Of a DNA stretch of 23,244 nt, positions 9,355 to 23,244 are shown in pieces. The position numbers and the translations under genes are program-made. Origin of the DNA: a virus; IMG/VR virus record IMGVR_UViG_3300045738_000564, positions 1-23,244 of that record. One strand, given 5' to 3'. Below the pieces are notes generated by a model. That model had not been told where the DNA came from and ran no database searches. It saw only the letters and a list, made by a program, of their open reading frames with translations. The stretch's first letter is position 1. Every line of letters starts with the position of its first letter.

Positions 9355-9423
9355 ATGCCAAGTTGGAAAAGAGTCATAGTATCGGGCAGTTCAGCCCATT
9401 TAAATGAAATTACAGGAAGTGGT
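9355..9423 (+). repeat. Shared N-terminal docking segment (partner at 6774-6842)
   Basis: This is the second copy of the 23-residue start shared with the 759-residue fibre; the bases coding for VIVSGSSA are nearly unchanged between the two. See the partner entry. Confidence 0.8.
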
Positions 9424-10725
9424 GGCATACATCTACCTGATTCTGCCAAACTTACTTTAGGTGATGCTCAAGATTTAAAAATCTATCATGGTGGTTCAAA
9501 TAGTATTATTCAAGAAGGTGGTGCAGGTGGATTAATTATAAGAGCCTCTACACTCACACTTTTAGCAGATAACACTAGTGAAAATTTTGTAATATGTACA
9601 GAAAATGCTGGAGTAGACCTTTATTATAATGGTGTAAAGAAATTAGAAACTGTAAGTGGTGGGGTAACTGTAACAGGAACACTTGCGGCTACCACTCTTA
9701 CTGGAGCACACGCAAATGCAGATTCGGCAGTTCAACCAGCAGATACATTTTATATAGGTACTACATCTGTTGCACATAATAGAGGTAGTGGAGCATTAAC
9801 ACTCGCAGGAATTACTTTAACTACACCAACCATTGCAAGTTTTGCAAACTCAACACACGACCACGCTGATGCAGCAGGTGGTGGAGTTATTGCTCTCGGT
9901 ACTGCTACAAGTGGAAATTATGTAGAGAAAGTAACTGTTGGTACTGGACTTGGTGGAGCAGTAGATAGTGAAGGTGGAACTGCTGCTATGACATTAGATG
10001 CAGCACAAACAGTAATTACTTCTGTTGTTAATTCAGGTTTAGAGATTGGTAAAGATGCAGATAATAGAATAAAATTTGGAACTGATAATCAAATAATTTT
10101 TGAAGTAGATACTGGCGACAATGTAATATTTAAAACTGCTGGTGAAATAGAAGCAACAAGTCTTGACATTAGTGGTGGTGTAGATATAGCTGGTGCTATA
10201 ACAAGTGCAGAATGGACTGGAGATGTAATTGCAAGTGCTTATTTGGATGCAGATACCGCACATTTATCAACCACTCAAACATTTAGTGGAGCAAAATCGT
10301 TCACATTAGCAGTTAATATAGATGCAACTACGGCAGCCAGTTCTAAGACAACAGGAGCACTGATAGTTGACGGTGGTGTAGGTGTTGCTTTAGATGTTCA
10401 CGCAGGTGGTGATGTTGTGGCATATGCATCTTCAGATGAAAGACTTAAAGACAATTTACAAGTTATTCAAGATCCATTAGATAAAGTTGGTCAAATAAGT
10501 GGTTATGAATTTGATTGGAATGAAGAATCTCCTGAATGGGCACAAGAAAGAGGACACGATATCGGAATTGTGGCACAAGAAATTCAAAAAGTACTTCCCG
10601 AAATTGTAACGGAAAGAACAAATGGTTATTTAGGAGTTGATTATAAACGAATCATTCCACTATTAATAGAATCCGTAAAAGAATTAAAACAAGAGATAGA
10701 AAATCTAAAGAAAAAAGTGAATTAA
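9355..10725 (+). CDS. Tail fibre with C-terminal S74 intramolecular chaperone
   Basis: A 456-residue protein with an AGGAG ribosome binding site. Residues 1-23 share the W..VIVSGSSA.LN start with the 759-residue fibre. Residues about 30-110 (LGDAQDLKIYHGGSNS, DLYYNGVKKLETVSGGVTVTGTL) are a well-known phage fibre domain pattern. Residues 160-180 contain STHDHADAAGGG. Residues 360-456 are a Peptidase_S74-type intramolecular chaperone: SDERLKDN with the Ser360-Lys365 pair, GYEFDWN, HDIGIVAQEIQKVLPEIV, LGVDYKRIIPLLIESVKEL and a C-terminal coiled coil. In this family the chaperone drives trimerisation and then cuts itself off just before the serine, leaving a mature fibre of about 359 residues. 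Self-cleavage here is inferred from the intact Ser-Lys pair. Confidence 0.94.
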   Translation: MPSWKRVIVSGSSAHLNEITGSGGIHLPDSAKLTLGDAQDLKIYHGGSNSIIQEGGAGGLIIRASTLTLLADNTSENFVICTENAGVDLYYNGVKKLETVSGGVTVTGTLAATTLTGAHANADSAVQPADTFYIGTTSVAHNRGSGALTLAGITLTTPTIASFANSTHDHADAAGGGVIALGTATSGNYVEKVTVGTGLGGAVDSEGGTAAMTLDAAQTVITSVVNSGLEIGKDADNRIKFGTDNQIIFEVDTGDNVIFKTAGEIEATSLDISGGVDIAGAITSAEWTGDVIASAYLDADTAHLSTTQTFSGAKSFTLAVNIDATTAASSKTTGALIVDGGVGVALDVHAGGDVVAYASSDERLKDNLQVIQDPLDKVGQISGYEFDWNEESPEWAQERGHDIGIVAQEIQKVLPEIVTERTNGYLGVDYKRIIPLLIESVKELKQEIENLKKKVN

Positions 10726-11212: not shown

Positions 11213-13942
11213 ATGGCAGAAAGAATCGTATCGCCGGGTGTATTTACTCGTGAACGTGATTTATCATTTCTTCCGGCAGGAATTGCAGCAATTGGAGCAT
11301 GTATAATTGGACCAACCGTTAAAGGTCCCGCATTTGTTCCAACGGTGGTTAGTAATTTTCCTGAATTTGAAGAAATGTTTGGATCAACTTCCAAAGATTT
11401 TTACACACCGTACGCGGTAGAACAATATTTAAGAAGCGCAGGAACTGTAACTATAATTCGTGTGTTAAATACGGCTGGTTATACAGCTGATTCACTTGCA
11501 ATCAAAGTAGGAACTACTACAGCCGCAGTGGTTGCTAGTGGTGATTTCACTATAGATGGTACGATTGAAAGTGGTACTGATCGTTGGGTATTAAATGATG
11601 CAGCCGGTGTTAATTACTATTTTTACGCAGCAGTAGATGGATCCCCGGGAGATACCCCAGCAACTAATACCTATTTCTTTACTTCGGGATCAACCTTAGC
11701 AGCCTCAGCAACTAACTTAGCAGCTGAAATGACTGGTAAAGGTGGAACAACTGTTACAGCAGCCGCCGCAGTAATAATAATAAGTGCGTCCAATGCGGGA
11801 ACAGATGGAAATAGTATTACATTTACTTCTGGTAGTGCAACTACAACTCTTGTAGAAGGAGCAAATTCAGTAGGTGGTAGAACAATTGCAGCACTAACAC
11901 CTTCACGTGGTGGTTCAGATGGAACTGCAGATTTAGAAGGTAGTACAATTGTTGGTACTTGGGCATCAGCCTCATTAACATTGAGTGGTAGTAATTGGGG
12001 AGCAAAAAGTCTAACATCATATACATATAAGATATCATTTGATACAGGAAGCAGCTATGCTGGGTATTCATATATTGAAGATGTATTTAGTAGAGATGCA
12101 CAAGTTCAGAAATCTGGTTTGAATACGGTATCAGCATATTTGTATAAGAACTTTAAGTATGAACAAAGTGGTAAGTCTTGGGATGCAGAAGATGATCTAA
12201 GTGTTGAAGATGGAACTTTAGGTTTAGCAGTAACATATAACAACGCATCAACACCTTATATTCAATCACAACAAATAAATGGAGCAAGATATAGCTTATT
12301 TAAAGTTCAATCTCGTTCACATGGTAGTGATGTAAATAACAAATTTAAGATTGTTATTTTGAATGTTAAGAAAGCCGGAACAATTGCAGGTACTGATTTT
12401 GGTGCATTTTCACTTCAATTAAGACAAACTGGATTAAATGATAACAATTTAACAAAAGATAACATTTTGGAACAGTGGGATGGATTAAGTTTTGATCCAA
12501 CAAGTCCAAGTTACTTTGCAAGACGAATTGGTGATAGGTATGTAACAATAGATGCAAATGGTAAATTAACCTATAATGGTGATTGGCCAAATCTATCTAA
12601 ATACATCTATGTATCTGATTTTTCAGCAATAGCAAATAGTGAATCACCAAAGACAGTTGTTCCTATGGGACATGCAGCAGTTAATAATCCATTTGGTAGT
12701 AATGATACAAGCATTCCAGCTTGGGTAACTTCATCTCTACAAACAAATGCACAAGATGAATTTGATAGTAGTCAACTTTATGGACATGATTATAGTAACT
12801 CAGATGCTGAAGAATATTTAGCACCAAATAATTCTTTTGGAAATGGTGCAAATGTTACTATGAGTTTGGAAGATCAACTTGGACACGCAGATGCATCAAC
12901 TCTTGGGACGACTTATTCTAATGGATCACAAAAGGTAACACTTACACTCTCTCATATTAAACAGAGAAAGTTTGTTGTTCCATTTCAAGGTGGATTCGAT
13001 GGTGATAACCCAGCAAATCCAAAACATACAGGAGCAAGTATTACTAATACCAATACACAAGGATTTGATTGTTCAACATCTTCAACTGGTGGTTCAGTAT
13101 CTTACAAGAAAGCAATTAACGCTATCAGTAATGCGGATGAGTTTGATATCAATATGTTAGTAACACCTGGTATTATTCATGGATTACATTCTAAGATTAC
13201 AAATCATGCAATAGCTAAAATGGAAGATCGTGGTGATGCATTCTATGTATTTGATTGTGGTAAATATGGTGGAACAATAGCAGATGCAACAAATGCAGTT
13301 GCTTCACTCGATACTAACTACGCAGCAACCTATTATCCTTGGGTAAAGATTGTTGATAGAGCCACAGCACTTCCAGTTTGGGTCCCACCTTCAGTTGTAC
13401 TACCCGGAGTAATCGCTTACACCGATAGAGTAGCACACGAATGGTTCGCACCAGCAGGTTTGAATCGTGGTGGACTAACAACGGTATTAGAAGCACAAAC
13501 AAGATTGACTCATGATGAAAGAGATGATCTCTATGAAGAAAGAGTTAATCCAATCGCTTCATTTCCAGGTCAGGGTGTGGTTGTTTGGGGACAAAAGACC
13601 TTACAAGGTCGTCCATCAGCACTCGATAGGGTTAATGTACGTAGATTGTTAATTAAACTGAAGAAGTTTATCGCTTCTGCAAGTAGATATTTGGTCTTTG
13701 AACAGAACACAACAGCAACAAGAAATCGTTTCTTGAACATTGTGAATCCGTTTTTAGAATCAGTACAATCTAATAGTGGTTTGTCAGCTTTTAAAGTAGT
13801 AATGGACGATAGTAATAATACTCCAGATGTTGTTGATAGAAATCAACTCGTTGGTCAGATATTTATCCAACCAACAAGAACAGCTGAGTTTATTGTACTT
13901 GACTTCGTGGTACTACCCACGGGAGCAACATTCCCAGCATAA
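11213..13942 (+). CDS. gp18: Tail sheath protein (gp18-like)
   Basis: A 909-residue contractile tail sheath. The N terminus (SPGVFTRERDLSF, AGACIIGPT-type strand, FPEFEEMFG, YAVEQYLRSAG, IIRVLN) is the standard sheath domain at about residues 5-87. The C-terminal domain at about 715-909 has LPVWVPPSVVLPGVIAYTDR, the RRLLIKLKKFIASASRYLVFE helix at about 810 and RNQLVGQIFIQPTRTAEFIVLDF at the end. These C-terminal strands interlock neighbouring subunits. T4 gp18 has about 660 residues, so roughly 250 are extra. Part is a Thr/Ala/Gly-rich, beta-sandwich-like insertion at about residues 93-235. The start has a strong AGGAG site and its own candidate promoter. A strong terminator follows the stop. 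The sheath contracts on host contact and drives the tube through the envelope. Confidence 0.95.
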   Translation: MAERIVSPGVFTRERDLSFLPAGIAAIGACIIGPTVKGPAFVPTVVSNFPEFEEMFGSTSKDFYTPYAVEQYLRSAGTVTIIRVLNTAGYTADSLAIKVGTTTAAVVASGDFTIDGTIESGTDRWVLNDAAGVNYYFYAAVDGSPGDTPATNTYFFTSGSTLAASATNLAAEMTGKGGTTVTAAAAVIIISASNAGTDGNSITFTSGSATTTLVEGANSVGGRTIAALTPSRGGSDGTADLEGSTIVGTWASASLTLSGSNWGAKSLTSYTYKISFDTGSSYAGYSYIEDVFSRDAQVQKSGLNTVSAYLYKNFKYEQSGKSWDAEDDLSVEDGTLGLAVTYNNASTPYIQSQQINGARYSLFKVQSRSHGSDVNNKFKIVILNVKKAGTIAGTDFGAFSLQLRQTGLNDNNLTKDNILEQWDGLSFDPTSPSYFARRIGDRYVTIDANGKLTYNGDWPNLSKYIYVSDFSAIANSESPKTVVPMGHAAVNNPFGSNDTSIPAWVTSSLQTNAQDEFDSSQLYGHDYSNSDAEEYLAPNNSFGNGANVTMSLEDQLGHADASTLGTTYSNGSQKVTLTLSHIKQRKFVVPFQGGFDGDNPANPKHTGASITNTNTQGFDCSTSSTGGSVSYKKAINAISNADEFDINMLVTPGIIHGLHSKITNHAIAKMEDRGDAFYVFDCGKYGGTIADATNAVASLDTNYAATYYPWVKIVDRATALPVWVPPSVVLPGVIAYTDRVAHEWFAPAGLNRGGLTTVLEAQTRLTHDERDDLYEERVNPIASFPGQGVVVWGQKTLQGRPSALDRVNVRRLLIKLKKFIASASRYLVFEQNTTATRNRFLNIVNPFLESVQSNSGLSAFKVVMDDSNNTPDVVDRNQLVGQIFIQPTRTAEFIVLDFVVLPTGATFPA

Positions 13943-14120: not shown

Positions 14121-14612
14121 ATGCCAGAACTATTAGATCCTTCAGAAATAATGTTCACACCGTTTGAACCGAAAACGAAAAATCGATACATCATGTATAT
14201 TGAGGGAATACCAGCATATCTCATTAAAACTGCTAATAGACCTACAATAGCCTTTGAAACTATTGAACTTGACCACATCAATGTTAAACGATATGTTAAA
14301 GGTAAGGGAGCATGGGAAGAATTAGAAATTACTTTATATGACCCAGTAGTTCCAAGTGGAGCACAGGCAGTTATGGAATGGGTAAGATTAGGACATGAAT
14401 CTGTAACAGGTAGGGATGGTTATACAGATTTTTATAAAAAAGATATAACAATTAATGTTTTAGGACCAGTAGGTGATAAGGTTGAAGAGTGGACCCTTAA
14501 AGGTACTTGGATTACCAACGCAACATTTGGTGATTTAGATTGGGCAAATACTACTGATCCTGTAGATATTACTCTTACATTAAGATACGATTACGCAATT
14601 TTACAATTCTAA
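14121..14612 (+). CDS. gp19: Tail tube protein (gp19-like)
   Basis: A 163-residue protein, the same length as T4 gp19, directly downstream of the sheath as in T4. Recognisable parts are the N-terminal RYIMYIEGIPAYLIKTANRP strand pair, the FETIELDHINVKRYVKGKG loop, WEELEITLYDPVVPSGAQAVMEWVR, and the C-terminal WTLKGTWITNATFGDLDW plus a final beta strand ending LRYDYAILQF. This is the pattern of the T4 tail-tube family, whose subunits stack as hexamers to form the inner tube that carries DNA into the host. It has its own candidate promoter and a TTGGAG ribosome binding site. Identification is secure from sequence pattern, length and order. Confidence 0.95.
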   Translation: MPELLDPSEIMFTPFEPKTKNRYIMYIEGIPAYLIKTANRPTIAFETIELDHINVKRYVKGKGAWEELEITLYDPVVPSGAQAVMEWVRLGHESVTGRDGYTDFYKKDITINVLGPVGDKVEEWTLKGTWITNATFGDLDWANTTDPVDITLTLRYDYAILQF

Positions 14613-14641: not shown

Positions 14642-14821
14642 ATGGCAATCATAGCAGATAAAGCTTGGTGGAAATCAAAGACAGTATGGACATCAGTAGT
14701 TGCTGGTGTTGTTGGAGTAGCACAAGCAGCAGGTCTTATAGAAACAGTACCTGAAGTTGTTTGGACATTACTCGCAGCATTTGGTTTGTACGGAGTTCGT
14801 GACGCTGTTGGAAAAGCATAA
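14642..14821 (+). CDS. Small holin-like membrane protein
   Basis: A 59-residue protein with a strong AAAGGAG ribosome binding site seven bases before the ATG. It starts with a charged, Trp-rich segment (DKAWWKSKTVW), then a hydrophobic span at about 16-33 (VWTSVVAGVVGVAQAAGL), a short acidic turn (IETVPE) and a second span at about 39-52 (VVWTLLAAFGLYGV). It ends in a basic tail (RDAVGKA). Two short membrane spans with a turn and a GLYGVRDAV end resemble small phage holin-like proteins found in tailed phages, including marine ones. Its position between tube and tail chaperone is odd for a lysis gene, so it might instead be a membrane-associated tail component. No endolysin is seen nearby. A hairpin terminator follows. 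Confidence 0.75.
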   Translation: MAIIADKAWWKSKTVWTSVVAGVVGVAQAAGLIETVPEVVWTLLAAFGLYGVRDAVGKA

Positions 14822-14939: not shown

Positions 14940-15710
14940 ATGGCAGAAGAAAAACGCCAATTTCCAACTGAGGTAATAGATTTGCCCTCTAAAGGATATT
15001 TTTATCCAGAAGATAATCCGTTATCAAGTGGTAAAGTGGAAATTAAATATATGACGGCGAGAGAAGAAGATATTTTAACATCTTCCAATTTAATACAAAA
15101 AGGAATTGTGTTAGATAAACTTTTAGAGGCACTTGTTGTTTCTGATATAAATATGGACGATGTTCTTATTGGTGATAAGAATGCAATCATGGTGGCATCA
15201 AGAGTTCTTGCATATGGTAAGGATTATCCAATAACATTTACAGATTCAAGTAGTGGTCGGAAAAGGGATGAAACAGTGGATTTAACTAAACTTGATGATA
15301 AACAAGTAGATTTTAAAAAATTTACTAAAGGTTTTAACGAACATGAATTTGAGTTACCTGTTTCAAAAAGAAAACTTACTTTTAAGTTTTTAGCCCAATC
15401 TGATGAGAAAAAAATATCTTCAGAATTAAAGGCCATGAAGAAATTTACAAAAGAATCTGGTATTGATCCTGAAATTACTACACGATTAAAAGCTTCTATT
15501 TTAGCATTAGATGGGGATCGTGATAGAAATATTATTAATCAATTTGTTGATAATGAATTTTTAGCAGTAGATTCTTTTGCATACAGAACACATCTTACAA
15601 AACTCACTCCCGATGTTGATTTAACTATTATGGTAGAACTTGATGATGGTGAAGTTGAGGAGGTAGCGGTCCCAGTGACTGCCACGTTTTTTTGGCCTTC
15701 GTCCAAGTGA
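14940..15710 (+). CDS. T4-type baseplate/tail assembly chaperone (gp26-like), short form
   Basis: A 256-residue protein with an AAGGAG ribosome binding site. The N terminus (EVIDLPSKGYFYPEDNPLSSGKVE, YMTAREEDILTSSNLIQKG, VLDKLLEALVV) and the middle (VASRVLAYGKDYPITF, ELPVSKRKLTFKFL) fit the T4 baseplate protein family that includes gp26. The C terminus (VPVTATFFWPSSK) has an FFWP end typical of these proteins. It lies between the tail tube and the tape measure, the slot of tail assembly chaperones in most long-tailed phages. Those chaperones are usually made in a short and a frameshifted long form. Here the last codons contain seven T, and a second frame without any start codon overlaps the end. 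A role in coating the tape measure or building the baseplate hub is inferred. Confidence 0.85.
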   Translation: MAEEKRQFPTEVIDLPSKGYFYPEDNPLSSGKVEIKYMTAREEDILTSSNLIQKGIVLDKLLEALVVSDINMDDVLIGDKNAIMVASRVLAYGKDYPITFTDSSSGRKRDETVDLTKLDDKQVDFKKFTKGFNEHEFELPVSKRKLTFKFLAQSDEKKISSELKAMKKFTKESGIDPEITTRLKASILALDGDRDRNIINQFVDNEFLAVDSFAYRTHLTKLTPDVDLTIMVELDDGEVEEVAVPVTATFFWPSSK

Positions 15711-15921
15711 TAAACCAAATATACACAATCAAATATTCATCCTAATATATAATTCAAAGGGTGGATTCACATTCAATGAAGTCTATAATTTACCTATATA
15801 TCTAAGACGGTATTATTTAAAACGACTTAAACAACAATATGATGAAGAAAATGATGCCTATAGAAAGGCATCCAAAACTACATCACGTCCTAATATTAAA
15901 AAATCAAAACAACGCAGATAG
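15679..15921 (+). CDS. Frameshift extension of the tail chaperone (no start codon)
   Basis: This frame is open from 15679 to the TAG at 15919-15921, +1 relative to the chaperone, and contains no ATG, GTG or TTG anywhere. It has a coherent protein character: a hydrophobic strand (IFILIY), GGFTFNEVYNLPIYLRRYYL, then a basic helix (KRLKQQYDEENDAYRKASK) and a basic tail. That pattern resembles short proteins found beside gp26-like genes in other T4-like phages. If ribosomes shift +1 (or -2) on the T run at 15687-15693, 75 residues from GLRPSDK onward are added, giving a product of about 326 residues. This mirrors the G/GT arrangement of other tail chaperones. Alternatives are initiation at a non-standard codon (CTG at 15679) or a base miscount in the T run. 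Confidence 0.65.
   Translation: MPRFFGLRPSDKPNIHNQIFILIYNSKGGFTFNEVYNLPIYLRRYYLKRLKQQYDEENDAYRKASKTTSRPNIKKSKQRR
15687..15693 (+). other. Candidate programmed frameshift site (TTTTTTT)
   Basis: Reading frame 0 gives ACG TTT TTT TGG. A peptidyl-tRNA on the second TTT can slip forward one base and still pair with TTT. The next codon then becomes GGC and translation enters the 75-codon extension. A -2 slip on the same run reaches the same frame with one more Phe. The zero frame stops only five sense codons further on, at 15708. No obvious pseudoknot was identified downstream. Confidence 0.6.
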
Positions 15922-15992: not shown

Positions 15993-16232
15993 ATGCCAAG
16001 ATACAAAATTAAAAATGAACAGGTTTTAACTGAGTTTATGGATAAATTTTGGAGAGCCATAGGCAAAAGAAAAGGTAAAAAGTTTGTTAAGGCCCTGTGG
16101 AGAGATCCAGTAATGGTGGGGTTAGTTCGGGATGCTGAAAAAATTGCTGATAAAATTCTTGATAGAGCATTAAAAGATAATGAAAATTGGAAACGTGACT
16201 TTGAAAAAAAGTATCCTGATTACTTTAAATAA
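15993..16232 (+). CDS. Small basic helical protein upstream of tape measure
   Basis: A 79-residue protein with a CGGAGAAAAACAA leader before the ATG. It is strongly basic and apparently all helical: NEQVLTEFMDKFWRAIGKRKGKKFVKALW, then VMVGLVRDAEKIADKILDRALKD and WKRDFEKKYPDYF. There is no membrane segment. It sits between the chaperone pair and the tape measure, with its own candidate promoter, so a tail-assembly, baseplate or nucleic-acid-binding role is possible. I do not recognise the family. Confidence 0.82.
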   Translation: MPRYKIKNEQVLTEFMDKFWRAIGKRKGKKFVKALWRDPVMVGLVRDAEKIADKILDRALKDNENWKRDFEKKYPDYFK

Positions 16233-16262: not shown

Positions 16263-18977
16263 ATGGCCCAGAAAAAAAATCAAAAAAGAGAGCCTAAAAA
16301 CCGAAAACAAGAACAGTTAGATCGTGAGATTCAACAGACTATTAGGGCAAACGAAAAACATTTCGCCCGCCTTAAAAAGTCTAATGATAAACTAGACAAA
16401 TCACTTAGGAACTGGATAGCCAGTAATGCGAAGTTGTGGGCAGATTTAAGTGCACGGCAACAAGCAGAAATATTGGCTGGAGGAATGGCTGCTGCTGAAG
16501 TTTGGGATGATGTAAGTCAACGGGCAAAAGATTATCAAAATATTCAATCAGATTTACTCCAAGATATGCAGTCTCAGTATAAAAAGAATCATCATGTACT
16601 GGAAGGGATGGATGTGGCTAGGAAGGCCAATCTGGATAGGTATGAAGACCTTGTAAAACAAAATACTCGGACTTCCAGAAAGGGATTGTCAGTTATGGAC
16701 AACATTGTTGATCGCACTAATCAAATAAAAGCCAATGCGTTAATGATAGGAACTACAGAATTTCAAAGTCTTGATTTAACCCGAGATATTGCAAAGGCAA
16801 AGGCTGATGGTACAAAAGAAGATATTAAACAGTTAGATGCCCTACAAAAAGAGCAGGAAATTTATGCACGAATTCATAAACAAATTGATGAAACTGGCAA
16901 ATTATTAGAACAACCATTTACTTGGATAGATAGTATGATAAAAGAAATCCCTATAATTGGAAATTTATTATCAGCTATCATACCATTTGAATCTTGGGGA
17001 AAAGAACTTTCTGATTCATTTAGAGAAGGTGCATCGGAAAAAGCCGCAGATCTTGTTACTGGAAAAACACGAAAAGAGAGAAAGGAAGATAGAGAAGCAG
17101 CAGAAAAGACAAAGAAAGAAACACTAGGTAAAGCAGAAGTAGGAGGGACTGAAGAATGGCAAAAGGAACAACAAGTCGCTACAGAAGATAATACTGAAGA
17201 ATTGACCCAGAATACTGAAGCAATAAAGAGTAATGCTAATGATACAACAGATACTACAGAAGGTGGTAAATCAATATCAGACTTATGGAATTTATTTAGT
17301 AGTCCTCGTACTGCTTATGTTCATGTAACTAATTTTGGTGATATTGAAGCAGGTGATAATACTGAACGACAATATGAAGATGGTACAATACTTGATGCAA
17401 CTGGTAACCCAGTACCTCCAACTGATATATCTAAAACTGTTAAGGGTGCACCACAAGATGCAGCTAAGGAATGTGAATTAGCTGCCCAAAAGGAACAAAA
17501 AAGGGTAGATGAAGAAGAGAATAAAAAAGAAGAAAATAATCAAAAAGATATAGCTGATGAGTGTGAGAGAGAAGCAAAAGAAAATGCCGCAGAGAACGGA
17601 GGTGATGACCCACCAGATAATACAAAACCAGAAGACGAAACAAAACAATTGAGTCTAAAAGAAAAACTTACGCAGAAAATGAAAAAGGCGATGCAAAAAG
17701 TTGGGGAAATATGGAAAAAAATACCAATGGCAGGTAAGATGTTACTGGGTACTCTAGGACTTGCTGCAGCCGTTTTCTATAAAATGTGGAGTACTGCACG
17801 AGATTTGGGTGTTGCGATGAACGAAATGCCCTATGCAGCAATGCTTTTTAAAGACGAAGCAGAAGCTATATTAGAAAGTTTTGGTAGTTTACGAGATGTA
17901 AGTAGTAAAACTCTTTTTACTATGAAAAAGATGGCGGTGATGCACGGAGTTCAAGCCAAAGATATGGCAACGATATTAGCACTACAAACTGCTACTACTT
18001 CTCAAAGTAAAGATATGGGATTAAAGACTCAGGCTAAATGGATTAAGGAAATTAAAAAGGAAGGATTATCAGCAAATAAAGTATTGGCAGATATGGCAGC
18101 AAATGCTGATTTCATGGCCGAACATATGAGAAATGGGGGAGAGAATATTAAAAATGCAGCAAAACATATGGCTAAAATGGGATTGAATTTACAGGTAGCG
18201 GAGTCGGCGGCAAACACATTGTTAGATTGGGAAACTTCAATAGCAGCAGAAATGCAGGCATCAGTAATTCTTGGTCGTTCATTAAATTTTGAAAGAGCAC
18301 GAAGTTTGATGTATAATGATAAAATTGAAGAAGCAATGAAAGAAATTAAAAATCAAGTTGGTGGTGAAGCTGAATTTGCAAAAATGAGTTCTACTCAAAG
18401 AAAGGTATTGGGAGAGACTATTGGAATACAAGGAGAAGCATTAGCAAAATTTATGCAAACTGAAGAACAACAACGAGCGGAATCAGCGAAATCAGAAAAA
18501 GAAGCCGCTGTGTCCAGAGCGAAGAAATGGGCCCTATTTGGTGCAGTAGCACTTGCTGTAATTACCGCCTTAGCCGCTGCATATTTTTCAATGATGTCTT
18601 TAGGAGTGGCAGGTGCCGCGGGAATTGCAACAACTTTGGGTTGGGCCGCAGCCGGTGCCGCGGCAGGTGCAATCGCAGGTGGGGCGATATTTGGTGGTTT
18701 AGGATATGCAACTGCGGCAACAGGTATGGATGAGATGGTAGCCGAACCTACCATGATTTTAGCAGGAGAAGCCGGCCCAGAACACGTAGGAATTACTCCA
18801 ATGAGAGGTGGTGGACCACCTGAATCAGCCGAACCAACAGTAGTAAATGTAGATACTTCAAAGATGGAAGAACAGAATGAAAAAATAATTCAATTATTGG
18901 TATCACGTAAAGATGATGCAATGGAACAAGCAAGAAAACAAAAAGGTGCAACTTTAGACGCTGGTAAACAGAGATAG
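16263..18977 (+). CDS. Tape measure protein
   Basis: A 904-residue protein with the layout of a tape measure. There is a basic, coiled-coil N-terminal region (residues 1-225) and a hydrophobic patch (IPIIGNLLSAII, about 230). A long charged low-complexity stretch at about 265-470 includes two Cys-bearing CE-containing helices. The hydrophobic MAGKMLLGTLGLAAAVFYKMW lies at 489-509. A long helical region follows, then a Gly/Ala-rich membrane-like stretch (756-820). The C terminus near 828 reads AEPTMILAGEAGPEH, a signature end of many tape measures. Its site after the tail chaperone agrees. In the tail this protein extends inside the tube, sets tail length and is ejected with the DNA. It is longer than T4 gp29 (about 590 residues), implying a longer tail. 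The ribosome binding site is weak (GGGATAG). Three bases separate it from the next gene. Confidence 0.9.
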   Translation: MAQKKNQKREPKNRKQEQLDREIQQTIRANEKHFARLKKSNDKLDKSLRNWIASNAKLWADLSARQQAEILAGGMAAAEVWDDVSQRAKDYQNIQSDLLQDMQSQYKKNHHVLEGMDVARKANLDRYEDLVKQNTRTSRKGLSVMDNIVDRTNQIKANALMIGTTEFQSLDLTRDIAKAKADGTKEDIKQLDALQKEQEIYARIHKQIDETGKLLEQPFTWIDSMIKEIPIIGNLLSAIIPFESWGKELSDSFREGASEKAADLVTGKTRKERKEDREAAEKTKKETLGKAEVGGTEEWQKEQQVATEDNTEELTQNTEAIKSNANDTTDTTEGGKSISDLWNLFSSPRTAYVHVTNFGDIEAGDNTERQYEDGTILDATGNPVPPTDISKTVKGAPQDAAKECELAAQKEQKRVDEEENKKEENNQKDIADECEREAKENAAENGGDDPPDNTKPEDETKQLSLKEKLTQKMKKAMQKVGEIWKKIPMAGKMLLGTLGLAAAVFYKMWSTARDLGVAMNEMPYAAMLFKDEAEAILESFGSLRDVSSKTLFTMKKMAVMHGVQAKDMATILALQTATTSQSKDMGLKTQAKWIKEIKKEGLSANKVLADMAANADFMAEHMRNGGENIKNAAKHMAKMGLNLQVAESAANTLLDWETSIAAEMQASVILGRSLNFERARSLMYNDKIEEAMKEIKNQVGGEAEFAKMSSTQRKVLGETIGIQGEALAKFMQTEEQQRAESAKSEKEAAVSRAKKWALFGAVALAVITALAAAYFSMMSLGVAGAAGIATTLGWAAAGAAAGAIAGGAIFGGLGYATAATGMDEMVAEPTMILAGEAGPEHVGITPMRGGGPPESAEPTVVNVDTSKMEEQNEKIIQLLVSRKDDAMEQARKQKGATLDAGKQR

Positions 18978-18980
18978 TAA

Positions 18981-21900
18981 ATGAGTTTAAAAAATCTAAC
19001 AGAAAATTTAAAAAACTTTAAATGGACTAATTATGGTAACGTTGGTAATAATAGTGCACCACCATCAAATGGTGGAAATTTAGAACCACCAGAACCTATA
19101 ACAGACCAAAAGAAAAAACTTGTTTATACTGGACCACCCATTCCTAAATCTACGAGAGAAATTAAAAAAACAATTCCACCTATTAAAGATGTTAATTTAT
19201 CAAAAACTATATCAATTATAGAAAAAGATACAAAAAATCTTATGAATTTAAGTCAAATAAAAGGTCGTCATGGTGGAACTAAAGAGGGTGGATTACCACC
19301 ACACCCTAAAGGACATTCTTTATTAGATGATGGGGCAGGAGAAAATTTAAGTCAAATAAAAGGTCGCCATGGTGGATTTGAAGGTGGAGGACAACCACCA
19401 CATCCCGAAGAACATTCTTTATTAGATGATGGAGCAGGTGTTCCACAACCATCTAATGGTTTAATAACATTAACAAAAGATTTAGTAAATTTTAAATGGA
19501 CTGATTATGACAATGTTGGTGATAATCTTAGTCAAACGGGTGGTCGTCATGGTGGAACTTTACCTGGTGGACAACCACCACATCAACCTGAACATTCTCA
19601 ATTTGATGATGGAGCAGGCACTCCACAATCATTTTATGATGGTCATTCTTCAGTAGTAACAGGACAAAAAACATTTGAAAGACCAAATCCAAAATCATTA
19701 GCAGATATGAAAAGTAAGTTTGGTCCACTTGAAACTCAACCAACTGAAAGAGGTCCTTATGGTGTATCTGATTTTATGGATGGAACTATGCAAGGACAAG
19801 GGTTTATTTCACCAGGTGGACCACCACTTGGGTTCACAGTTGATATGGGAGTATCTGAATATGCTATCGGTGATCCACTTAATTATGCATTAACTCCATT
19901 ATCTCATACTATTGCAGCAGTAAATTCTGGTGGACCACATGGTAGTGTTCCAGTACAGACACTTAATATTTCACCAGTAGCACCAAACGCATGGGCAGAA
20001 GATTTTATGACTACTCCGTTAGCAAATTATGTAAGTCAATATTCAGAACCAGTTGATTCATTAACACATGAAGTTACTATGATTACATTAACAGGACCAA
20101 CAGCTCCAGATAGTTATCAAACAGAATTAAATGTAATTCCAAAAATAGATGGAGCACACGGAAGTGATTTTATGACTTTACCAATATCTGGATATCCTGG
20201 ATTATATGTTGGATCTCAAGGTGATATTGTTCCAATAATTCCATCAGTACTTGGACTTGGAGAATCAGATAGTATTGCGGCAACTTGGCCAGATAAGATA
20301 TTCCATCAATTAGGAAATTTACAGGATCCAAAATATTATAGAGTGTACGATCACCATTTTCTACCAACTATTGAGAATTTTAATCATATATCTTTATTAA
20401 CGGATTTATTTGAAAATGAATCTACTTCAGTTGCCGCTGAAAAATGGAAAGATGGTTCTGTACATATAGGTACACAAGATTGGGCAGCACCAGTAGGTGG
20501 TGGTGTTACATCATGGGCAAATTTAATGCCAATAACACCAAGATATTCAATGTTTAGGGATGCACAAGGTAATTATCAAGTTCCGACTTTATTTCCACAT
20601 GAATGGACAAATCAGCCAACATTTAATGTTTTAGGGGGATATCCAGAGAGTACTTATGGAGGGGGATATACTATTAATTCTCAATTTGGATTTAGTTGGA
20701 ATGATCTTGCAGGTTGGTTTATGGAGACTATTGATGATTCAGGCCAAGGCGATGCTACTAATTATTCTTCTGCTCACGGAGCTTATTCTTTTGAAATTGG
20801 ACCCGAATCTACTGATTTATACGAAAGTATGCCCAAATATCATCTTGATACTCCATTAACAATAAAATGGCATCTTATTGATAAGGAATCTGAAGAATGG
20901 CCATATAAACAATTTGGTTTTAGTAATTCTCCTGAAGATTCGTTTAATGAAGGTTCTTTAGGCATAACAACATCAACTGGAGCCCTTGTATATGCCACTC
21001 AACCATTTATTAGAAGGCAGGCTGGTCAAGGATATCTTGATGGTCGGGGTACAGGAGTAGTTGGAGCAGATCATTTAGCTACAGTAATTGCCAGAATAGA
21101 AGAAGATACTACACGTATCAATGCTTGGTTAAATACACCTGCTGGAAAAAATTGGCATAACAATCAATATACTTTACAAAATTTAAATCCACGACCAGAA
21201 ACGAGAACTTATAATCCTGGAAGTTTACTTATTTCGTTAGTTCCACATCTTCATGGACAGAGACATTTATCAGGATTTTTCGGTATATTTGGACCAGGTA
21301 AATATGGTGATTTGGGAACAGATAAAGATTATCATGAAGATGATGATGATGCTCCAATTTGGGGATATGGTCGTATTGGTAGTGGGGCTGAAAATACTTT
21401 TAAACATAGTAGATTAACAAGGCTAACGAAGCTTCGTATAAACTTAGACCCAGAAGGACCTTCCGCTTTGAGTATAGCTTATGATGAAGCTTCAACGGCC
21501 GGGGTTGAAGGAGAGGGGTCTCTTACATGGGATTTAATTAGAGAAACAGCTCTTGTAATAGAAGATTGGTCATCTACTAATCTCGGACGAACACCAAAAA
21601 CTCCCAGTCATGATGTAAAAAGTCAATTGGGTGCTTATGGAGAAACTAGGATTTATACCACTTTAGCTGGTAGGCAGCGGGGTTTCCCCAAATCTCAATG
21701 GTGGTTACAGGCAAGTCATAGTCCTACAAGAACAGAACCAAAGAAATCCTTTTTTGTTAGCTCTTATGCAGGGTTATTTTGGGCCCAGTCATATGGTAAT
21801 TTAGGGAATGAATATTCGAATTTGGTTAATAGGAAGTGGGCATATTTAGATCCTAATTCTTATGACAAGTTATCTGTAGAACAAAGGACATATGGAGTTG

Positions 21901-23244
21901 GTCTCAAAGACAATAAATTTGAATTATCATCAAAAAATCTATTTTATGGAGTAGATAAAGAAAGACCAGATGATGGTACTATTTCTTGGACTATTGCCGG
22001 TGATGGGACAGCGTATTCAATAAATAATTTTTTAGGTACATTAGATGAAAACGATAGGGCAGGGATACACATGACAAGATACTCAAAATATCACTCTGCT
22101 GGTTTAACAAGTAAAATTGGTTTGTATGCCAATCACATTGGGCCCCCACATACAGGAAAGGGTGGAACTCCAAAAGGTGCACCAACAACAAGTCCAGATT
22201 ATTTTACACTTGGGTATCAATATCTTGGTCATGATGATCTACGCAATGCGTATGGGGTTAAACCATCAGATACCCTTCATTGGAGATCATATAAAAGTAA
22301 GGCAGCATCCATAGGTGGAGATGATATTTGGTTTCCGGCTTCAGGGATATTAAATTATTCTTGGAAGTTTTGGGATCCAGCAAATAAGAAATTAGTCGAT
22401 TATATCGGCCCGGCCGGGATAACCCAACTGCAGAAATTTGTTGACTCTGATGGTATTTCAGGTTTAGAAAATAATATTTTCACTATTGGAAAAGGTTCTC
22501 ATGGTAATTTAAATCCCAGGCAGGCTTTATTTTGGGAAGAAAGTGTATCACAAGACACTGAAATGACTGAGACACCATATCCAATCCTGTCAGGAATATT
22601 ACCAGGAAGTACTAAAATAACACCAGTCACAGTAATTTCATTATTAAAAAATGGAAAATGGTCAATTGGACATGGAACAGCACCACGAAGTTCTGAAGAT
22701 ATAAATTTTCTTGTATTACCATATCAGGGTCTTGATATTGAAACTTCTTATGGTAAAGACCTTGGTAGTAATCCTTGGCCAATTGATGATACAAAAAGTT
22801 TTTCTTCACTTATAAGACATTCTTGGAGATTTTTTGATAAATCACATAAAGATAAAAAAGATCCATATTGGGATGATTTTAAAGCTGTTGAGATGGAGTT
22901 TCCAGCGGAGCATATGGAAGCCGAGTTTGAAGATACTGTTGGTAATCTAATAGACAGTGGGAAAGTTTTTACAATTAATAAGAGAGCGTCTCAAGGTCTT
23001 GATTTTACTGGCCAACCATCAGGAAATTTACTTAAACGTTATTCTACTTTAACTTATGGTAATCTAAATAAAAATGTAGGGTATACGTCTAATAAGGGGA
23101 TCAATTTAAAGGCCTGGCCAGGAGTACCAATATCACCTTCAGAATTTAATAGTTCCGACACCCATGGCGGATCAGGAAATAGTTTAGCAGATATGAAAAA
23201 TTTCAATGATAGAAGAGAATCGCAGAAGACAATTAAAGCTATAG
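18981..23244 (+). CDS. Very large unrecognised virion-cluster protein, 3' partial
   Basis: One uninterrupted frame of 1421 codons runs from the ATG at 18981 to the right edge without a stop. The start overlaps nothing but follows the tape measure stop by three bases, with an AGAGATAG leader as a weak ribosome binding site. Residues 89-121, 122-154 and 182-214 are three 33-residue repeats (NLSQIKGRHGG, PPHP, HSLLDDGAG). FKWTxYxNVG occurs at 13 and 171. SLADMK occurs at 239 and again at 1401, near the edge. SDFM/EDFM-type segments recur between about 260 and 410, and SW.F.D-type segments near the end (SWKFWDP, SWRFFDK). The remainder is rich in Gly, Pro, Ser, Tyr and Trp, with no membrane span or signal peptide. 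I do not recognise a family. Position suggests a tail or baseplate structural protein. Confidence 0.85.
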   Translation, partial: MSLKNLTENLKNFKWTNYGNVGNNSAPPSNGGNLEPPEPITDQKKKLVYTGPPIPKSTREIKKTIPPIKDVNLSKTISIIEKDTKNLMNLSQIKGRHGGTKEGGLPPHPKGHSLLDDGAGENLSQIKGRHGGFEGGGQPPHPEEHSLLDDGAGVPQPSNGLITLTKDLVNFKWTDYDNVGDNLSQTGGRHGGTLPGGQPPHQPEHSQFDDGAGTPQSFYDGHSSVVTGQKTFERPNPKSLADMKSKFGPLETQPTERGPYGVSDFMDGTMQGQGFISPGGPPLGFTVDMGVSEYAIGDPLNYALTPLSHTIAAVNSGGPHGSVPVQTLNISPVAPNAWAEDFMTTPLANYVSQYSEPVDSLTHEVTMITLTGPTAPDSYQTELNVIPKIDGAHGSDFMTLPISGYPGLYVGSQGDIVPIIPSVLGLGESDSIAATWPDKIFHQLGNLQDPKYYRVYDHHFLPTIENFNHISLLTDLFENESTSVAAEKWKDGSVHIGTQDWAAPVGGGVTSWANLMPITPRYSMFRDAQGNYQVPTLFPHEWTNQPTFNVLGGYPESTYGGGYTINSQFGFSWNDLAGWFMETIDDSGQGDATNYSSAHGAYSFEIGPESTDLYESMPKYHLDTPLTIKWHLIDKESEEWPYKQFGFSNSPEDSFNEGSLGITTSTGALVYATQPFIRRQAGQGYLDGRGTGVVGADHLATVIARIEEDTTRINAWLNTPAGKNWHNNQYTLQNLNPRPETRTYNPGSLLISLVPHLHGQRHLSGFFGIFGPGKYGDLGTDKDYHEDDDDAPIWGYGRIGSGAENTFKHSRLTRLTKLRINLDPEGPSALSIAYDEASTAGVEGEGSLTWDLIRETALVIEDWSSTNLGRTPKTPSHDVKSQLGAYGETRIYTTLAGRQRGFPKSQWWLQASHSPTRTEPKKSFFVSSYAGLFWAQSYGNLGNEYSNLVNRKWAYLDPNSYDKLSVEQRTYGVGLKDNKFELSSKNLFYGVDKERPDDGTISWTIAGDGTAYSINNFLGTLDENDRAGIHMTRYSKYHSAGLTSKIGLYANHIGPPHTGKGGTPKGAPTTSPDYFTLGYQYLGHDDLRNAYGVKPSDTLHWRSYKSKAASIGGDDIWFPASGILNYSWKFWDPANKKLVDYIGPAGITQLQKFVDSDGISGLENNIFTIGKGSHGNLNPRQALFWEESVSQDTEMTETPYPILSGILPGSTKITPVTVISLLKNGKWSIGHGTAPRSSEDINFLVLPYQGLDIETSYGKDLGSNPWPIDDTKSFSSLIRHSWRFFDKSHKDKKDPYWDDFKAVEMEFPAEHMEAEFEDTVGNLIDSGKVFTINKRASQGLDFTGQPSGNLLKRYSTLTYGNLNKNVGYTSNKGINLKAWPGVPISPSEFNSSDTHGGSGNSLADMKNFNDRRESQKTIKAI
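19245..19622 (+). repeat. Three 33-residue repeats (19245-19343, 19344-19442, 19524-19622)
   Basis: Two units are directly tandem and a third follows after an 81-base spacer. Each is exactly 99 bases and encodes NLSQ..GRHGG, then a Gly-rich link, PPHP or PPHQ, then HS.LDDGAG. The spacer contains a second copy of the FKWT.Y.NVG segment that also opens the protein at residue 13. Codon differences between units show they are not freshly duplicated. Confidence 0.9.

Follow-up and report, generated by a model that had tools for sequence, protein, structure and literature searches.

How does a viral reading frame come to be translated when it offers no place to begin? This question is raised by the 3′ end of a gp26-like gene located within the window, by which we mean the entire 23,244-nucleotide stretch of viral DNA analysed here. 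The gene closes with the codons ACG TTT TTT TGG CCT TCG TCC AAG TGA, an ending that includes a run of exactly seven T residues (positions 15687-15693), and no other T run on the plus strand of the window reaches seven. Overlapping this ending is a second frame (15679-15921) of 80 sense codons that starts with CTG, carries no ATG, GTG or TTG, and stops at TAG (15919-15921), just as the initial annotation had described. The second frame lies at +1 (equally, at -2) relative to the gp26-like gene, and past the T run it reads GLRPSDKPNIHNQIF...VYNLPIYLRRYYLKRL. A stretch of 75 codons stays open in 0.2% of mononucleotide-shuffle trials. Because a TGA codon precedes the T run in the second frame, a ribosome that started in this frame before the TGA would never arrive at the C-domain. 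From the comparative evidence assembled below, we consider it very probable that this single gene yields two tail assembly chaperones (TACs) through frameshifting, namely a short form (TAC-N) and a long form (TAC-NC) (Table 1).

Table 1. Coordinates of the candidate frameshifted gene and its neighbours (positions in the window)
Feature	Position	Strand	Description
Tail sheath gene	11213..13942	+	PF04984 1.7e-15, PF17482, phrog_23 1e-71
Tail tube gene, gp19 type	14121..14612	+	PF06841 1.9e-7, phrog_4542 3e-26
gp26-like gene, frame 0	14940..15710	+	256 aa; most likely short tail assembly chaperone (TAC-N)
Predicted frameshift fusion (protein P0002)	14940..15921	+	326 aa, junction TFF-GLRPSDK; inferred product of translation with one +1 step
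Upstream TGA of second frame	15676..15678	+	8 bases 5′ of the T run
Shift site TTT TTT TGG	15687..15695	+	P-site Phe 15690-15692 (UUU) to 15691-15693 (UUU); next codon GGC 15694-15696
C-terminal extension, +1 frame	15694..15921	+	75 codons, GLRPSDK...SKQRR; putative C-domain of the long chaperone (TAC-NC)
Frame-0 TGA	15708..15710	+	Four codons past TGG
Conserved 79-aa ORF	15993..16232	+	tblastn 35-89% identity in eight relatives; between C-domain and presumed tape measure gene
Presumed tape measure protein	16263..18977	+	904 aa; assigned by position and length; place conserved in relatives

The 256-aa protein matches PHROG 150 (E 3e-9) and just misses the cut-off of Pfam family PF12322 (5e-5; 23.5 bits versus a cut-off of 24.5), which is passed by its relatives from SP-15, GXN1, LR756508 and LR756511. 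PHROG 150 also takes in T4 gp26 (7e-71) and, over its whole length, T4 gp51 (3e-84), and it served as the bridge to these proteins; direct HMM searches of the window family against gp26 and gp51 gave no usable match. An AlphaFold2 model of the 256-aa protein has a pLDDT of 89, and its top VIA-align match is the HK97 gp13 chaperone (3.8 Å, 94 of 104 residues) with a Z score of 4.6, which is weak by the yardstick of that tool. Foldseek gives the same pair an E value of 4.7, and the N part has no match among PDB sequences. Because of the membership in PHROG 150 and the weak structural resemblance to the HK97 chaperone, we propose that the two frames most likely encode a TAC-N and a frameshifted TAC-NC.

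Genes are ordered from the tail tube gene through the gp26-like gene and a small ORF to the presumed tape measure gene, so that the overlap does sit in the slot upstream of the tape measure to which it had first been assigned, with the proviso that the 904-aa protein is identified by its position and has no family match in Pfam or PHROG. The 79-aa ORF in between is conserved in near relatives, and searches of immuto, Mel-JY01 and SP-15 did not find it. A hydrophobic ORF of 59 aa, below the 60-aa cut-off, is located between the tail tube and chaperone genes (14642-14821, plus strand), and six relatives share 70-96% identity with its C-terminal part. Elsewhere on the plus strand, the protein encoded at 9355-10725 ends with DERLKDNLQ...GIVAQEIQKVLPEIV, which resembles the S74-type intramolecular chaperones that tail fibres carry. 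An ORF of 1421 aa (18981-23243, plus strand) runs off the end of the window and, near its start, has three varied copies of a NLSQIKGRHGG..GGQPPHPEEHSLLDDGAG-like motif.

When the 256-aa protein was used to scan IMG/VR, the 80 nearest relatives (55-96% identical) included 78 whose sequence continues beyond the site. Each of these retains it, in one case with a lone T-to-C change, and in all 78 the second frame is homologous and, except at contig ends, remains open for 61-71 codons past the first stop. Scans with more distant members as queries extended the census to at least 173 loci carrying YTT-TGG (the window, IMG/VR contigs and two phage isolates), from which 71 representatives less than 85% alike were drawn. 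The near group has at least 78 TTT-TTT-TGG sites, including that of the window, and one TTT-CTT-TGG. The Microcystis/Flavobacterium-like group has at least 74 TTT-TTT-TGG, three CTT-TTT-TGG and one TTT-CTT-TGG, and the LR756508-like group has at least 14 TTC-TTT-TGG and two TTT-TTT-TGG. Two further loci (L164 and L166) carry TTT-TTT-TAC with the C-domain in +1. Among isolates, the +1 arrangement is found in Flavobacterium phage immuto, Microcystis phage Mel-JY01 and Rhodothermus phage RM378 (TTT TTT TGG A), and with other A-site codons in Bacillus phage SP-15 (TTT TTT CAC), Listeria phage LIS04 (TTT TTT AGT) and GXN1 (TTC TTT CGT). A pattern scan of GTDB genomes found no relatives, and SP-15 used as a query against viral contigs matched only itself.

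Three features suggest that the slip site itself is under selection. First, the position and the identity of the frame-0 stop differ among relatives and the slip site is constant, with hardly any positions outside TTTTTTTGGCCT reaching 95% conservation. The TGGCCT portion is less informative in this regard because both overlapping proteins (WP in one frame, GL in the other) hold it in place. Second, the codon preceding TGG in the 71 representatives is TTT in 69 cases, CTT in two and TTC in none. Elsewhere TTC makes up 19.7% of Phe codons (P ~2e-7 for none in 71, if the rows are independent), and in other well-conserved Phe columns its share is 13-25%. Third, the codon one position upstream of the P-site codon accepts both TTC and CTT. 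In frame 0 the third base of the P-site codon is silent where the residue is Phe, and for the second frame this base comes before the shift. Thus, TTC is absent before TGG though this base is free in both frames, and from this we conclude that the comparative data reveal selection on the site.

Sequence comparison also indicates that the second frame beyond the first stop is protein-coding. Median Ka/Ks past the frame-0 stop (1003 pairs) is 0.20 in the +1 frame versus 1.04 and 1.67 in the other two, values that are rough where synonymous sites approach saturation, as they do in many pairs, so that it is the contrast between frames that counts. Likewise, stop codons in this region number zero per sequence in the +1 frame versus 2.4 and 6.3 in the others. 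The C-domain has a conserved motif (MP-LRR-YYLKRL) and is modelled by AlphaFold2 as three helices (pLDDT 84), with no match in the PDB. Taken with the conservation of the site, the proposal of a programmed shift at the T7 run of a T4-type chaperone gene, first made from the window alone, is now strongly supported.

Because the second frame can equally be entered by a shift of -2, which would add one extra Phe to the fusion, the direction of the shift must be considered. On the T7 run of the window, re-pairing after a -2 slip is possible, and in LIS04, taken alone, it is as easy as after a +1 slip. However, on TTC-TTT-TGG (at least 14 loci) a -2 slip puts the Phe anticodon on UCU, with a mismatch at the middle position, whereas a +1 slip places it on UUU with perfect pairing. 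The TTC-TTT-CGT sequence of GXN1 behaves similarly, in that +1 re-pairing gives UUC and -2 re-pairing on UCU is poor. For this reason, we regard a -2 shift as unlikely and take a +1 step at UUU_UGG to be the most probable event, in favour of one of the two directions that the initial annotation had entertained.

It might also be that no ribosome shifts frame, and that the C-domain is made as a separate protein from a non-standard start codon or by re-initiation past the frame-0 stop. Such an arrangement has some precedent among relatives, given that in loci L265 and L270 the C-domain is a separate ORF opening with an ATG, that in cyanophages an ATG occurs in the C-domain a few codons past the site, and that 32 of the 71 representatives have some ATG, GTG or TTG before codon 12 of the second frame. 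But the other 39 representatives have none there, as in the window, where the entire second frame lacks these codons, and the only clear separate starts are those of L265 and L270, both of which lack the site. Furthermore, independent initiation leaves unexplained why TTC is missing from the P-site codon. We therefore judge separate synthesis of the C-domain to be very unlikely as the general explanation.

Slippage by RNA polymerase on the T run is another way to reach the fusion, by standard translation of mRNAs of altered length. Most members do have a homopolymer of seven T residues; however, seven is short for transcriptional slippage, and members with TTT-CTT-TGG or TTC-TTT-TGG retain the same arrangement with T runs only three or four long. 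Because of these members without a long T run, we find transcriptional slippage highly improbable and infer that the slipping agent is the ribosome. Finally, homopolymers are error-prone, and an overcounted T in a gene that is really continuous had been offered at the outset as a simple alternative, but this is a practically negligible prospect given that the out-of-frame arrangement recurs in at least 173 loci from many metagenomes and sequenced isolates, that a miscount is excluded by the interrupted T runs (TTC-TTT-TGG, TTT-CTT-TGG) and by the CTT-TTT-TGG variants, and that comparison of the T run and both frames among relatives found none with six T residues and a single continuous gene.

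Returning to a +1 shift by the ribosome, we envisage that the majority of ribosomes would terminate at the TGA beginning at 15708 to release TAC-N. In a minority, with UUU in the P site and UGG waiting in the A site, the ribosome would slip one base forward, the Phe tRNA would re-pair on the overlapping UUU, and reading would continue in the +1 frame to produce TAC-NC with its 75-residue helical C-domain. By analogy with lambda G/GT, coating of the tape measure protein may fall to the short form, and recruitment of tail tube subunits to the long form, which would be the rarer of the two. This presumed division of labour is suggested by protein family and gene order.

The missing stimulator and the recurrence of the hexamer are the weakest part of this mechanism. 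The codon in the A site is a sense codon, UGG, that is neither a stop nor a member of the rare-codon class. UGG is the only Trp codon and accounts for 98 of 7273 codons in the window genes, and the supply of Trp-tRNA might set the level of shifting. Since TTT-TGG occurs in frame at four other places in window genes, the hexamer alone may not suffice, and there may be an additional requirement, perhaps for the Phe codon ahead of it or for the nascent chain. No significant RNA structure was found downstream (z -0.5) or upstream of the window site; for the region downstream of the site in the 71 relatives, the mean z is -0.6, with 13 below -2, and covariation was not found. A Shine-Dalgarno-like element is absent in 63 of the 71 representatives.

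A close mechanistic parallel is with the release factor 2 gene (prfB), wherein a UGA stop codon occupies the A site and a Shine-Dalgarno-like element acts as the stimulator. In contrast, the A-site codon in the window is a sense UGG, and we found no Shine-Dalgarno-like element. The two systems agree in the P site, in that release factor 2 genes shift at CUU_U or, in a minority of species, at UUU_U (PMC5009743), and both CUU and UUU occur in the window family. A likely +1 shift in a tail chaperone gene, as here, is also described for the archaeal myovirus HSTV-2 (PMC5009743, PMC8211752), and the UUU_CGU of GXN1 is the hexamer reported for influenza PA-X.

Tail-chaperone frameshifting as such is already well known. 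Lambda G/GT resembles the window system in occupying the slot between the tail tube and tape measure genes, and in having a short protein that ends near the slip site along with a minority long form that carries a C-domain. It differs in direction, being -1 (PMC5009743) where the window has +1 at UUU_UGG, and the window protein belongs to the T4 gp26 family rather than that of lambda G. The lambda-type shift has been described as a conserved feature of long-tailed phages, with T4 as the exception (PMC5009743); in T4, gp26 and gp51 are classed as chaperones of hub assembly (PMC3004832). These two T4 proteins share PHROG 150 with the window protein, and gp51 reads as a natural fusion of a short form and a C part; unlike the window, however, T4 encodes them in separate genes, one on each strand, and does not frameshift (PMC10274946). 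According to the same source (citing Vladimirov 2022), one short and one long chaperone gene replace the frameshift in T4-like phages. The initial annotation knew of no established frameshift for the T4 gp26 family, a statement that needs correcting, since for the TAC genes of T4-like phages another report refers to a poly-T signal for -1 shifting (PMC12846349, citing Vladimirov 2022).

Within the searchable literature, we found neither a YUU_UGG site nor a +1 shift in the gp26 family. That literature covers the 2022 study by Vladimirov, which reportedly identified the tail assembly chaperones of T4-like phages, through the papers that cite it. As far as the literature searched is concerned, what is new is a conserved sense-codon +1 site, YUU_UGG, in the gp26 family, together with a change of direction between clades.

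This change of direction is evident in the Kyanoviridae, where 80 of 80 loci have T_TTT_TTC, the stop lies one codon beyond it, and the C-domain is encoded in the -1 frame. Vibrio phage KVP40 has the same site and frame, as do the jumbo phages Atu_ph07 and LR756511, the latter with its stop further on. Like the window gene, the gp26 and small ‘gp51’ ORFs of Kyanoviridae and KVP40 are homologous N and C parts joined at Phe-Phe; unlike it, their C-domain is reached in the -1 frame. By hhalign, the C-domain of the +1 group matches that of the cyanophages at 86% (E 5e-6), and the latter matches the tail of T4 gp51 at 70% (E 4e-5), with 0.5% for the window-family C-domain directly versus the gp51 C-terminal extension. 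On a tree of the N part, which has long branches and an unsure deep order, the +1 rows need three label changes and the -1 rows two.

In the immuto relatives L265 and L270, the site is lost (TTC TTG TAT and TTC CTT TGG CCA, respectively), and the C-domain is in another frame with about 22 extra residues. There it forms an ORF that has an ATG of its own, an indication that phages can also provide the C-domain as a protein in its own right. Judging from these comparisons, the two-form output appears to have been reached by +1 shifting, by -1 shifting and by separate genes. We think it rather likely that an old and widespread bacterial class of +1 sites at YUU_UGG, where the A site holds a sense codon and no stimulator can be recognised, serves the tail chaperone genes of a large T4-related group, that direction has switched between +1 and -1 at a conserved Phe-Phe, and that separate genes do the same work in T4 and in L265 and L270.

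Several existing records can be reread in this light. The small ‘gp51’ annotated in Synechococcus phage Bellamy (L091, 3663-3869) is probably a truncated call of the -1 extension of gp26, and the small ‘gp51’ of Kyanoviridae loci L175-L254 is probably likewise a truncated -1 extension at T_TTT_TTC. In the records of immuto, SP-15, LIS04 and Mel-JY01 the C-domain is unannotated or its start is misplaced, and in GXN1 (L085, PQ819873.1) TTC TTT CGT C lies at the 3′ end of a baseplate-protein gene with the C-domain in +1.

Frameshifting thus accounts for absent or truncated C-domain annotations in phage records. It also fills the gap around T4, since most T4 relatives examined appear to frameshift, either forward or backward. 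Reporter constructs would allow a direct test of a +1 site at which the waiting codon is an ordinary sense codon and no stimulator is apparent, and the family as a whole offers a comparative system for learning how the direction of a frameshift changes while its product is kept.
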